Source of the DNA: Rhizobium sp. PP-CC-3A-592
Lineage (GTDB): Bacteria; Pseudomonadota; Alphaproteobacteria; Rhizobiales; Rhizobiaceae
Length of the DNA stretch: 64,000 bases
Direction: 5' to 3'
Assembly (NCBI RefSeq): GCF_003217095.1
Contig: NZ_QJSR01000005.1
Location: 279,335 to 343,334 of the forward strand
A model generated the notes under the pieces. It was not told where the DNA came from and did not search any database. It saw only the letters and a program-made list of their open reading frames with translations. Positions within the stretch are counted from its first letter, which is position 1, and each line of letters starts with the position of its first letter. The translations under genes and the position numbers were made by a program. Below are positions 23,128 through 60,471 of the stretch, one piece after another.

Positions 23128-23242
23128 CCGTCATGCTCGGGCTTGTCCCGAGCATCTGCGGCACTGCCCGCGATCTGAAGTACCGTGGTCTTGCGTATGC
23201 GGGGACGACAGCAGATGCTCGGCACAAGGCCGAGCATGACGG
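23128..23242. repeat. Alphaproteobacterial palindromic intergenic repeat
   Basis: Two 32-bp arms (23128-23159 and 23211-23242) are inverted copies matching at 30 of 32 bases. The two differences compensate each other inside a small hairpin within each arm (GCTCGGGCTTGTCCCGAGC). The spacer is 51 bp. CGTCATGCTCGGGC elements of this kind are scattered between genes in Rhizobiales genomes. It fills most of the 276-bp gap between the CobW gene and tusA. Confidence 0.8.
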
Positions 23243-35839: not shown

Positions 35840-35886
35840 TGTGGGTGGCGCGGAGGTGCTGCGCTAGCCTTGTTGCGCTGCGCGCT

Positions 35887-36037
35887 GCCCCTCATCTGCC
35901 TGCCGGCATCTTCTCCCCGCCTGCGGGGAGAAGAGACTCGTGGTTCCCAACCACAACCGTCACTGAAGAAGCGGACGCTTCCCGCATGTCCCTTCGCCCC
36001 GCGCGCGGGGAGAAGGTGGCGGCAGCCGAATGAGGGG
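35887..36037. repeat. RIME-like palindromic element, copy 1
   Basis: The outer ends CCCCTCAT and ATGAGGGG are inverted. Each side contains a CTTCTCCCCGC...GCGGGGAGAAG hairpin, with GGCGGCAGCC on the right. The layout and sequence match the element at 50876-51030, but the arms here have more differences. This resembles the Rhizobium-specific intergenic mosaic element family. It sits between the converging esterase-like gene and yhhQ. Confidence 0.75.
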
Positions 36038-36055
36038 CTGCGACGTCCGCTAACC

Positions 36056-50839: not shown

Positions 50840-50875
50840 GGTCGCATGTTGTGTTCAACGTCCTGGTCTTGGCGG

Positions 50876-51030
50876 CCCCTCATCCGGCTGCCGCCACCTT
50901 CTCCCCGCGCGCGGGGAGAAGGGACTTGTGGCGATCGTCTGGTCTCTAAGTTCCGTTTTTAGAGCGAGCGGGTGCCACATCGCCCTTCGCCCCGCTGGCG
51001 GGGAGAAGGTGGCGGCAGCCGGATGAGGGG
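50876..51030. repeat. RIME-like palindromic element, copy 2, with perfect 33-bp arms
   Basis: The arms 50876-50908 and 50998-51030 are exact inverted copies (33 of 33), CCCCTCATCCGGCTGCCGCC and on. Each arm carries its own CTTCTCCCCGC/GCGGGGAGAAG hairpin. The middle is about 89 bp. It lies between cpdR and the TIGR02302 gene, and matches the copy at 35887-36037 in plan and sequence. Confidence 0.85.
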
Positions 51031-51050
51031 CAGCCGCAACCCCAAACACC

Positions 51051-57141: not shown

Positions 57142-57822
57142 ATGACAGACCCGGGAAAACCCCGCTCCGCCCTGCGGCTCGTGGCGCTTGCAGCCCTGCT
57201 GGGCCTGATCGCCGGTGCGGCTGCGGTATACGTCAGGCAGAGCGGGTCTGGCAATGCTCCGGAGGTCGCTTCCCAAGGTGATGCGGGTCCCTGCACGGCG
57301 GCAGCGCCCAGGATCGCCGGTCTGACGCCGCTGATGAAGGGTCAGGTCGCCGCCATGGCGCCCGCCGACCGGCCGCGGCTTCTGGAGGGTCTGACGTTCA
57401 AAGACGGCGCGGGCAAGGACCTGACGCTTGCCGATTTCAAGGGCCGAGCGGTGCTGCTCAATCTCTGGGCGACGTGGTGCGTGCCCTGCCGCGAGGAAAT
57501 GCCGGCGCTCGACAGGCTGGAGAGGGCCGAGGGGAGCGACCGCTTCGAGGTCGTCGCCGTCAACATCGACACCGGCAGCGACGAGAAGCCGAAAGCGTTC
57601 CTATCGGAAACAGGTGTCACGGCGCTGAAACCCTATCGCGATGCTTCCATGGGCGTTTTCAACGCTTTGAAGAAGGAGGGGCTGGCCTTCGGTCTGCCGG
57701 TCACCGTGCTGCTCGACGACAAGGGCTGCCTGCTCTCGGCCATGAACGGGCCGGCGGCCTGGGATGGCGAGGAGGGGCGGGCGCTGGTGCGCGCTGCCGC
57801 GTCAGCGGGTGCCGGCTCCTGA
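57142..57822 (+). CDS. tlpA: TlpA-type thiol:disulfide interchange protein
   Basis: The 226-residue protein has an N-terminal anchor helix ([21 protein letters not shown]) and a periplasmic thioredoxin domain with active site WATWCVPC and the cis-Pro turn [10 protein letters not shown]. TlpA reduces ScoI or oxidase copper sites. There is an extra Cys in GPCTAAAP and one in GCLLSAM. The ATG at 57142 is favoured over upstream starts. Its last 190 bp overlap the converging LtaS-like gene. Confidence 0.93.
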
Positions 57823-59153
57823 GGCCGGCGGCTTCGCAGCAGGTACCAGTCCACAAGGCCGGGCTTGAAATGGCGGCGGGCGGCGCGCTCCCAGAGCGGC
57901 GTCTGATGATCGCCGACGATGAGGATATCGGTCGGCGGCAGGTCCGGATCGCGCGCGATGACGGCCACCGAGCGGAAAAGGTCGCTCCACAGGTTCGTCA
58001 GGTCGCACACCGTGCGGTTGTCGATGGCCGGCGCCATGGTGGCGCAGCCGAGCCTGTCGATGGCGGAGGGCTGGTAGGGAATATGCGTGTTCAGCGTCAG
58101 GAAATAGACGAATTTCTGCGTGTCCGGATCGGCCTTGAGTGCCGCATCCACGACGCCGGCGACTTCCGTGTCGCAGAGCCCCTTGAAGACATTGCCGCAG
58201 CGCGATGGCGTGGGGCTTGGCACTTCTGCCGCCATCTCCTCCATGAAGGTGCTGCGTTGGAAGCCGATCTGCGGATACCAGTGATGCCGCAGGAACATGT
58301 CGCGGGAATAGCCGTGAAAGGACAGCGTGCTCAGGCCCTTTTCGCTCAGGCGACGCGGCAGGCAGTCGAAGGGCTGGTCGCTGATAAAATCGAGCCAGCT
58401 GCCCCAGTGTCCGCAAAGCTCCCGCGCGGCAGCGCCGGTGGTGGAGCCTGAATAGCGTGTCGTGCCGCTGGTGAGCTGATAGCGCCCGCCGAGGGTTTCC
58501 TTCTGCAGGATCTGGCTGAGAAGCGCCCGATCCTGCGGATCGGCAAAGGCACCGAGGCCCTCGACCATGACGAACAGCATGTTGTGCCCCGATGCAGCGA
58601 TCCTTGTTGCCGTCAGGTCATTCTGGAGGATGGCGCTGTCAAAAGGTGGTTTTGCCGTCGTGAAGGGCTGGTTGACCGCGATATCGAGCCCGACCACGGC
58701 GAGCGCGGCAAAGGCCACGGCCGTGGGGGAGGCGAGCGGCACATCGGAGCGAAACCTGTTGAAGAGCCCTGCCGTGAGAAGCGCCATGCCGACCATTGTC
58801 AGGATGAGCGCGACATAGAAGGCGGATGCCGCGACATTGATGGTGGCGAGAAAACCGAGCGTGTCGATGGCATCGCCAATCGGCAGATTGAAGGCGACCA
58901 TGGCGACGAGGACCATATCGAGAAGCGCGGCGAGCACGAAGACCGGGTAGGCCGCCCAGCCGGGCAGGACGTAGGCAGCGGTTCCGGCGAGCACGTAGAA
59001 AAGCGGGGACATCGTCCGGACCGCCACGTAAAAGGGCATCGCGAGCAGGAAGACGATATTGGGGACGACGAGGGTGCCGATCAACCGTACGCTCGCTCGA
59101 CGAGAGGCCGGGATTCTAAGGGCTACGTTCCGCGCGCTGGTTTTTGCAGTCAT
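57633..59153 (-). CDS. LtaS/sulfatase-fold membrane protein
   Basis: The 506-residue protein has about five helices in the first 170 residues and then a periplasmic alkaline-phosphatase-superfamily domain: NMLFVMVEGLGAF, SGSTTGAAARELCGHWGSW (likely Thr nucleophile), HGYSRDMFLRHHWYPQIGF, LTLNTHIPY and GDHQTPLWERAA. Relatives transfer phosphoglycerol or phosphoethanolamine, or cut sulfate. After [11 protein letters not shown] the final about 65 residues are low-complexity and lie opposite the tlpA coding strand, so the usual stop may have been lost. Start is ATG at 59153. Confidence 0.85.
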   Translation of the reverse strand: MTAKTSARNVALRIPASRRASVRLIGTLVVPNIVFLLAMPFYVAVRTMSPLFYVLAGTAAYVLPGWAAYPVFVLAALLDMVLVAMVAFNLPIGDAIDTLGFLATINVAASAFYVALILTMVGMALLTAGLFNRFRSDVPLASPTAVAFAALAVVGLDIAVNQPFTTAKPPFDSAILQNDLTATRIAASGHNMLFVMVEGLGAFADPQDRALLSQILQKETLGGRYQLTSGTTRYSGSTTGAAARELCGHWGSWLDFISDQPFDCLPRRLSEKGLSTLSFHGYSRDMFLRHHWYPQIGFQRSTFMEEMAAEVPSPTPSRCGNVFKGLCDTEVAGVVDAALKADPDTQKFVYFLTLNTHIPYQPSAIDRLGCATMAPAIDNRTVCDLTNLWSDLFRSVAVIARDPDLPPTDILIVGDHQTPLWERAARRHFKPGLVDWYLLRSRRPQEPAPADAAARTSARPSSPSQAAGPFMAESRQPLSSSSTVTGRPKASPSFFKALKTPMEASR

Positions 59154-59231: not shown

Positions 59232-59498
59232 TAATACCAAGTGTCGATGATAGGAACCTATAGGACAGGCTTCTCGGGTTTTCTGGCTAGGAGAGGTGCG
59301 CAGATCGATGCTGTCGTATCGGTCAAGAGCCTCGACAACGCCAGAAAGCCCGAGAAGCCTGCCGAAGGTGGTTCAGTGCTGGTCTCTGGCGTTGTTGCGA
59401 TGCTTGCCCGATGCGACAGCATCGCGCTGCGCACCGCGCCTAGCCAGAGATCAGCACTGAACCATCCTATAGGTCCCTATCATCGACACTTGGTATTA
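59232..59498. mobile_element. 267-bp multi-palindromic element with 34-bp terminal inverted repeats (MITE-like)
   Basis: The ends 59232-59265 and 59465-59498 are inverted copies, 33 of 34, starting TAATACCAAGTG. Inside are three more inverted pairs: 59266-59287 with 59340-59361 (21 of 22), 59369-59390 with 59443-59464 (21 of 22), and 59285-59316 with 59414-59445 (28 of 32). The element has no ORF of note. Its right end supplies the TAA stop of the 3-hydroxybutyryl-CoA dehydrogenase. TA lies at both ends, as expected for IS630-type MITEs, but this is unproven. Confidence 0.75.
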
Positions 59499-60368
59499 GC
59501 GCGTCGGAACCGGGGTTTCCCCACGATAGTCGTAGAAACCGCGACCGGACTTCCGGCCGAGCCAGCCGGCCTCGACATATTTCACCAAGAGCGGGCAGGG
59601 GCGGTATTTGCTGTCGGCGAGGCCGTCATGAAGAACCTGCATGATCGAAAGGCAGGTGTCGAGGCCGATGAAGTCGGCGAGTTGCAGCGGGCCCATGGGA
59701 TGGTTCGCGCCGAGCTTCATGGCGGTGTCGATGGCATCGACGGTGCCTACACCTTCATAGAGCGTGTAGATTGCCTCGTTGATCATCGGCAGGAGGATGC
59801 GGTTGACAATGAAGGCCGGAAAATCCTCTGCAACCGTGATGGTCTTGTCGAGCGCGGTAACGAACTGGCGGGCCGAGGCGAACGTGCCCTCCTCGGTTGC
59901 AATGCCGCGCACCAGTTCCACGAGCTTCATGACGGGAACCGGGTTCATGAAGTGGATGCCCATGAAGCGCTCGGGGCGGTCCGTGGCGGAGGCGAGGCGG
60001 GTGATCGAGAGGGAGGAGGTGTTGGTGGCAAGGATGGCGTCCGGCTTGAGCACCGGACAGACGGCGACGTAGATCTTGCGCTTGATGCTCTCGTCTTCGG
60101 TGGCGGCCTCGATCACGAGGTCGGCCGGTGAGAGATCCGTCAGGTCCGAGGAGCCCTTGATCAGCGTCAGCGCCTTCTTGCGCTCGTCCTCGGTCAGTTT
60201 TCCGGAGGAGACCTGGCGGGCCATGTTGCCGTTGATCGTGGCAAGGCCGGCCTCGATGCGATCGGGCGCGATGTCGTAGAGGTGGACCTTGTACCCTGCC
60301 ATCGCGGCGACCTGCGCAATGCCGCAGCCCATTTGTCCCGCACCGACGATTCCGACATTCTTGATCAT
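59496..60368 (-). CDS. 3-hydroxybutyryl-CoA dehydrogenase
   Basis: The 290-residue enzyme has NAD fold GIVGAGQMGCGIAQVAAMAGY, NTSSLSITRLA, GIHFMNPVPVMKLVE (catalytic His), NRILLPMINEAIY and ANHPMGPLQLADFIGLD. It interconverts acetoacetyl-CoA and 3-hydroxybutyryl-CoA. The ATG at 60368 fixes the start. The TAA is within the palindromic element. It lies downstream of etfA/etfB (235-bp gap with a terminator), the order common in rhizobia. Confidence 0.95.
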   Translation of the reverse strand: MIKNVGIVGAGQMGCGIAQVAAMAGYKVHLYDIAPDRIEAGLATINGNMARQVSSGKLTEDERKKALTLIKGSSDLTDLSPADLVIEAATEDESIKRKIYVAVCPVLKPDAILATNTSSLSITRLASATDRPERFMGIHFMNPVPVMKLVELVRGIATEEGTFASARQFVTALDKTITVAEDFPAFIVNRILLPMINEAIYTLYEGVGTVDAIDTAMKLGANHPMGPLQLADFIGLDTCLSIMQVLHDGLADSKYRPCPLLVKYVEAGWLGRKSGRGFYDYRGETPVPTR

Positions 60369-60399: not shown

Positions 60400-60471
60400 C
60401 TAGGTTCGCTATAGCGCTTTATACCTGCTGCATCATTCCTCAAATCGATTTCGATTTGAGGAATGATGCAG
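60400..60471. repeat. Intergenic palindromic repeat, copy B (perfect 21-bp arms)
   Basis: Arms 60428-60448 and 60451-60471 are exact inverted copies with a 2-nt loop; the core is GCATCATTCCTCAAATCGA. The preceding TTCGCTATAGCGCTTTATACCTG matches the flank of the copy at 5260-5333. It lies 32 bp before the 3-hydroxybutyryl-CoA dehydrogenase start. Confidence 0.8.

Follow-up and report, generated by a model that had tools for sequence, protein, structure and literature searches.

The window, a 64,000-nucleotide stretch of Rhizobium sp. PP-CC-3A-592 DNA, contains a gene for a 3-hydroxybutyryl-CoA dehydrogenase (59496-60368, minus strand; NF005715, E 1.8e-169) whose stop codon abuts a strongly palindromic element. 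The element lies between this gene and a codirectional minus-strand ORF (57633-59153, no match in an NCBIfam search), 78 bases upstream of the start of the latter; the sole plus-strand ORF of at least 80 codons that runs into it (59241-60131) matched no Pfam family. The discrete mobile unit measures 261 bp (59235-59495, TACCAAG...CTTGGTA), has no assigned strand, and is delimited by two 98% copies in the same genome together with filled and empty versions of three sites. It is bordered by a left target-site duplication, TAA (59232-59234, a TNA triplet defined by empty-site comparison), and a right one, TTA (59496-59498), which, read on the minus strand, forms the TAA stop of the dehydrogenase gene. 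Its left terminal inverted repeat (59235-59265, plus strand) was recognized by inverted-repeat search and by comparison with IS630-family ends, and its right one (59465-59495, minus strand) by inverted-repeat search and the genome copies.

Between these ends lie two hairpin units, A (59263-59363, plus strand) and B (59367-59467, minus strand), inverted relative to each other and joined by a linker, CCGAAGG (59362-59368), that was placed between the two stems from sequence and fold. Covariance model R1, which was built from 15 units, scores unit A at 100.3 bits against 30.2 on the opposite strand, its rows including units near-identical to A, and unit B at 110.8 bits against 48.1, B being itself one of the rows. 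The stem of A pairs 59266-59287 with 59340-59361 (22 nt, 95%) and carries conserved internal loops; that of B pairs 59369-59390 with 59443-59464 (22 nt, 95%). A first-pass annotation of the sequence had described a 267-bp element with 34-bp terminal inverted repeats and three further inverted pairs. The inverted-repeat search recovered the end repeat (59232-59265 with 59465-59498, 34 nt, 97%) and all three pairs, the pair 59285-59316 with 59414-59445 being enclosed in a longer one (59282-59345 with 59385-59448, 64 nt, 83%). The structure therefore stands, but the size does not, since 3 bp at either extremity belong to the target duplication, leaving 261 bp and 31-bp arms; the dehydrogenase TAA, correctly placed within the end repeat, is its outermost triplet.

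The window also contains other inverted repeats. Just upstream of the dehydrogenase gene, a perfect 21-bp inverted repeat, CTGCATCATTCCTCAAATCGA (60428-60471), resembles another rhizobial repeat. A different one, of the CTCATCCGGCTGCCGCCACCTTCTCCCCGC type (50871-51035, 62-nt arms, 89%), belongs to a high-copy repeat with 73 matches in the genome, both strands and partial matches counted, and was not matched by the hairpin-unit model. Two long imperfect inverted repeats lie at 35883-36042 (55 nt, 82%; by eye like the 50871 repeat) and 23128-23242 (44 nt, 84%).

Copies of the element are dispersed. The host genome (5.12 Mb in 27 contigs) holds the window element, two copies at 98%, one diverged copy at 78% and one fragment, in addition to several palindromes of ∼52 bp consisting of the two ends only. 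Matches were found in 10 of the 61 genomes searched, the host included; a plasmid of Agrobacterium sp. MA01 carries a copy at 82% where no feature is annotated, plasmid searches with two other subfamilies returned 2 and 4 records, and a search of phage records returned no match. For all three full insertions in the genome (3/3), empty counterparts exist in related genomes. The window site, filled here as gtggtt-TAA-element-TTA-gcgcg, is empty in two genomes of the same genus, G005 and G001 (gtggttTTAacgcg and gtagttTTAacgcg), and also in G003, G006 and G002, but with diverged flanks; this reading covers those five genomes. The second site (TAA-element-TAA-ccc here) is empty in five genomes, G001 to G005, as TAACC or TAACCC, and the third (cactc-TGA-element-TTA-catcc here) is empty in G001 and G002 as TTAcgtcc and in G004 and G005 with other letters. 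The symmetrical reading that fits all three sites is a 3-bp TNA duplication around TACCAAG...CTTGGTA. At two of these three sites the left middle base differs from that of the empty site; at the window site the left duplication is TAA where the two nearest empty sites have TTA, so the middle base differs here. The last codons and stop of the dehydrogenase gene are preserved: the two relatives whose empty site is clean have CGT TAA where CGC TAA stands here. The first-pass annotation had held that the mobile-element idea fails if the sequence occurs only here, with neither copies nor empty sites, and both were found.

Scanning the genome collection for exact matches to TNATACCAAGTGTCGATGA placed these three sites in a wider set. 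The scan returned 79 stretches, 75 of which carry Rhizobiaceae names, the exceptions (L082, L091, L098 and L107) having a lone or spurious end only. Paired elements numbered 64 (46 of 254-268 bp, 10 of 44-58 bp and 8 of other lengths), and 61 distinct sites, all from Rhizobiaceae, remained after removal of one 2,744-bp pair, addition of the three copies from the host genome and removal of 5 orthologous repeats. TNA stands on both sides at 54 of the 61 sites, with identical triplets at 43; because the scan pattern itself demands one TNA, free evidence comes from the opposite end alone. In 11 of the 54 duplications the middle base differs, two of these being among the three in the host genome. 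The duplications include 8 TGA/TGA and 3 TCA/TCA sites, which lack TA altogether, and the proposal that the element has 'TA at both ends' gives way to a TNA duplication. The target itself is palindromic, G-N-C-TNA-G-N-C, with A or T favored in the middle (GNC-TWA-GNC).

The position of the window element at a stop codon is a recurrent one. With gene calls based on codon usage, 23 of the 61 insertions fall exactly in a stop codon, 33 are intergenic and 5 lie inside called genes, as against 315, 2,846 and 11,776 control TNAs at the same loci (stop versus intergenic, Fisher p 2e-9); cruder gene calls, which these replaced, had given 28/63 and 16/63 stop hits. A pure motif preference was considered and rejected as the whole explanation of the excess: with a target motif derived from the insertions outside stop codons used to weight the controls, the expected stop share rose from 10% to 15%, which accounts for part of the observed 41% (23/56, p 3e-6). 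The flanking-gene contexts of the 33 intergenic insertions resemble those of the controls. However, 28 of the 33 have a gene end, 5' and 3' ends alike, within 100 bp, versus 58% of control sites, which suggests that survival or accessibility at gene ends may matter. Furthermore, TAA and TGA are themselves TNA triplets, and an insertion there should be nearly harmless because the duplicated triplet supplies the stop again. The excess is accordingly attributed to motif and survival together, with no claim of active aiming.

The TACC ends and TNA duplications point to a class of transposase. Screening the DDE_3 loci of five genomes for inverted TACC ends, with TNA not required, yielded two elements of the form TAA-TACCAA...TTGGTA-TAA, G003:C27 (1,161 bp, in a genome of the same genus) and G142:C40 (1,157 bp). 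The G003 insertion sequence has two overlapping 190-codon open stretches with a run of A near their junction; the first ORF scores 89.1 bits against NF033545, below the cut-off of 100, whereas the second exceeds it (153.3 bits, E 9.8e-45) and also matches PF13358 (DDE_3, E 2.1e-27). An IS630/DDE_3-type transposase was thus identified in the candidate partner only. This insertion sequence matches 336 plasmid records, 134 of them over at least 80% of its length. Among the 40 plasmid matches listed, 15 were inspected and all 15 have identical TNA triplets, the ends being set by the BLAST match (query 1-1161) for 12 and picked by a TNA-favoring script for the other three (H43, H44 and H47). Together with the two genomic copies, TNA-TAC...GTA-TNA with identical triplets holds in 17 of 17 inspected copies, which represent 15 distinct sites, as the flanks of L261 equal those of L256 and the flanks of L267 those of L266. 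Their duplications are TAA, TTA and TGA: elements that carry the IS630-family annotation, namely L246:866-2026 and the plasmid copies L260-L274, duplicate TNA, not only TA.

The likeness of the ends is partial. The end of the window element shares 18 of its outer 25 bases with that of the G003 insertion sequence (p 0.0001 against shuffles that kept TACC fixed), and other subfamilies reach up to 20/25; across ten element subfamilies, 42 of 50 end comparisons gave p<0.05 and 8 were no better than shuffles. The match is confined to the outer ∼25 bp. No TNA-type IS630 transposase was matched in the host genome assembly at E<=1e-30, and at the one DDE_3 match there (L248) the inverted pair adjoins CTAG instead; the partner can therefore be named only at the level of its class. 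Among 247 genomes of the family, 75 have the hairpin unit, 40 the transposase and 15 both, with about 12 expected, a weak association. An autonomous partner with the same long ends was sought within 4 kb at the 79 loci and by eye at 15 solo ends, and none appeared in either set. Three further sets of candidates were set aside: the 2,744-bp pair in Bosea (L107), whose ends carry 6 and 2 mismatches and one of whose flanks is CGG; the DDE_Tnp_1 loci, which contained no TNA-TACC pair; and the TACC pairs without TNA in L228, L232, L235 and L257 (arms 9-11 of 18), which are taken as chance background.

Taken together, the feature is very probably a non-autonomous miniature DNA transposon (MITE) that would be mobilized in trans by an IS630-family transposase. 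It has no transposase gene, and it has terminal inverted repeats, dispersed near-identical copies, target duplications, empty sites and ends related rather than identical to those of an autonomous element. The MITE interpretation of the first-pass annotation is hence borne out, and its IS630 idea holds at the level of the family, in that full-length elements with the same kind of ends encode such a transposase, but not in the TA duplication that it assumed. Duplication of a TA dinucleotide is the rule for the IS630 family, and classical IS630 elements differ from this one in that respect; at the level of class, assignment to a TNA-duplicating IS630-type transposase is nevertheless the most likely one and, judged from sequence comparison, strong. 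The closest known systems are the Rhizobiaceae IS630 elements with TNA-TAC ends, for example Pararhizobium gei NZ_CP119410.1 66574-67734 and G003:C27, which share the terminal TACCAA, joined in those most similar by a subterminal TC..TGAT..GAACC, and the 3-bp TNA duplication, but are about 1.16 kb long, with a transposase encoded by two reading frames that overlap. The hairpin-unit model matched none of seven such loci (L246, L256, L260, L262, L265, L270 and L272).

Division of the interiors of 44 full elements into hairpins, with the window element counted once, revealed two inverted units of ∼100 nt whose consensus contains conserved internal loops. Under the better of two sorting rules, 32 elements are A+B, 11 are C+D and one is A+D; the first rule gave 30 A+B, 10 C+D, 2 B+B, 1 A+D and one single-unit element. 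R1 detects the unit in 75 of 247 genomes of the family (55/109 genera, E<=1e-4) and in 52 of 297 genomes of the order (37/123 genera, E<=1e-5), the host being included in both; these counts are lower bounds because stricter filters were used and few candidates were scored per genome. From 56 loci (L172-L227), 31 with recognizable ends were picked and rescanned with the unit model, and 24 of them carry two units, always plus on the left and minus on the right (E<0.001 in 23 of them, 0.04 in L186). By eye, 11 of these 24 have type I ends (TACC...GGTA), with TNA on both sides except in L190. The other 13 (L176, L178, L186, L189, L191, L198, L199, L203, L205, L213, L218, L223 and L225) have type II, CTAG-type ends, mostly CTAG-AGC, with the variants CTAG-ACC, CTAG-ATC and CTAG-TACC and an imperfect CTAG in L186, L189 and L191. 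The distinctive trait of these elements, as read from their sequences, is a conserved hairpin pair that recurs across the order in elements with quite different ends.

With at least two end types, the core has presumably depended on two or more kinds of transposase for its movement. In a tree of 56 unit cores, type I ends as a single clade are rejected (p 0.0007); end-swapping is suggested by this rather than shown, because each element has two paralogous units and the tree used only 64 columns. Tentatively, then, the core may be a functional module in its own right, present across Hyphomicrobiales in elements with at least two end types (TNA-TACC and CTAG-type), acting in cis as folded DNA (or RNA) to raise transposition or persistence, and traded between ends. 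A plainer account, in which the element is an ordinary IS630-derived MITE, the interior a neutral passenger and the hairpins near-perfect only through template switching during replication, seems rather unlikely. Unrelated interiors are common among MITEs, palindromes tend to self-correct, and the short deletion forms likewise lie between TNA triplets, all of which this account accommodates. Self-correction of stems, however, does not explain the unpaired loop motifs (TAGG, CGCAG, CAAG and CGACAAC), which are conserved across families of the order and across differing end types. The stems do covary: two-sided pair changes were counted at 9/34 (A), 15/38 (B), 1/37 (C) and 12/34 (D) pairs over 83 distinct units (truncated unit L137r left out), but compensatory changes in a palindrome can come from template switching and on their own are no proof that structure is under selection.

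The earlier suggestion of a structured RNA that alternates between two folds, a cloverleaf and a rod, would make the element riboswitch-like or an sRNA, a reading that is improbable. The predicted fold is indeed very stable (-185.9 kcal/mol versus -88.6 +/- 4.8 for shuffled sequences, z -20.4, 0/200 shuffles as low), the stems covary, and the element directly follows a gene's stop codon and may be transcribed. Yet the element is mobile, with target duplications, and the energy gap on which a switch would depend is not conserved: the cloverleaf is lower in energy in 34 of 44 distinct elements, with differences among copies of about -10 to +30 kcal/mol, and no arm order is preferred with respect to the gene (6 A, 6 B, 3 D, 1 C). 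G-T mispairs outnumber A-C in unit orientation, 33 to 15 column occurrences, which would favor an RNA, but this ratio is biased because RNAalifold favors G-U columns. The terminal hairpins of A and B resemble each other slightly more when they belong to one element than when they come from different ones (identity 0.889 vs 0.866, 0/2000 permutations as high), whereas the core (p 0.27) and 5' stem (p 1.0) gave no such result and exact identity of the 4-nt loops, seen in 12 of 32 elements, was not above that of shuffled pairs (p 0.07); shared descent, inter-arm conversion or loop pairing could produce the likeness. A search of Rfam 15 at E<=1 gave a single match, which at 20.6 bits falls far short of its gathering score of 100, and hence no curated RNA family. 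Finally, A and B lie on opposite strands, so that one transcript would contain one sense and one antisense unit; as the same directional sequence is kept in both, a symmetrical role at the DNA level is likelier than a single RNA.

The short copies bear on how the double hairpin came to lie within its ends. The short form L126 retains ATCGG, a microhomology found at both interior edges of the L060-type subfamily, and L073, L133 and L084 have joins of the same kind; such copies are best read, from these joins, as probable internal-deletion products, which makes a nested insertion unnecessary. A deletion form of ∼52 bp occurs at the same gene end in G000, G001 and G002 (L011, L023/L061 and L024), and because three genomes of the genus have it there, some copies are old and stable. 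That a 199-bp double-hairpin element inserted into the center of a ∼54-bp palindrome, duplicating CCTATAGG, is highly improbable and was rejected: 54-bp palindromes with this center do exist in the host genome and its relatives, and CCTATAGG does border the interior on both sides, but it is its own reverse complement and occurs twice as part of a stem anyway, other subfamilies have a different sequence at its position, and the short forms, most clearly L126, look like deletion products with interior remnants at microhomologies.

Among known repeats, REP/REPIN elements, which depend on RAYT, make to our knowledge no target duplication, unlike the 3-bp duplication present here. The Yersinia palindromic sequences YPAL/RU-2 are closer in character, as they too are short, palindromic and mobile, duplicate their target and occur at sites for which filled and empty states are known, and they tend to sit just after stop codons. 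They are about 168 bp long, with internal rather than terminal inverted repeats and duplications of 3-26 bp (PMC2229807); they differ from the present element in size, repeat position, duplication length and hosts. The CIR of Caulobacter and Brucella are intergenic repeats of about 110 bp with a conserved GANTC and RNA models of two stem-loop arms and a linker, and the section devoted to them mentions no enclosing terminal repeat (PMC2229807). The likeness lies in an alphaproteobacterial intergenic repeat with two arms and a linker, but the conserved GANTC is absent here, 41 of 44 full copies having none and the remaining 3 having one. RIME are about 108 and 150 bp in size. RIME, Sm-repeats and AB/C motifs are named as rhizobial repeats (PMC2573895), and resemble the element, by that description, as intergenic palindromic repeats of the same family. 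Titles and abstract openings of the open-licence papers listed yielded no description of the element.

For the MITE, a mechanism can be proposed. An IS630-family DDE transposase supplied in trans would bind the TACCAA...TTGGTA ends, cut at TNA within GNC-TWA-GNC and insert the element with a 3-bp stagger. Stop codons, TAA and TGA or TTA and TCA on the other strand, would offer ready-made TNA targets, and the duplicated triplet would restore the stop, so that insertions could do little harm and persist. A single strand of the element is predicted to fold mainly as a cloverleaf, and the symmetrical role proposed for its core may consist in binding a protein, or extruding a hairpin, at each end.

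The first-pass annotation thus recorded a real feature, which is a mobile element and not an RNA switch. A puzzling palindrome is thereby tied to a class of transposase, and the TNA duplication explains how a repeat can lie exactly in a stop codon without damage to the gene. In some elements that bear the IS630-family annotation the duplication is a 3-bp TNA rather than TA, and a structured core, found across a bacterial order, now has a function that is open to test.
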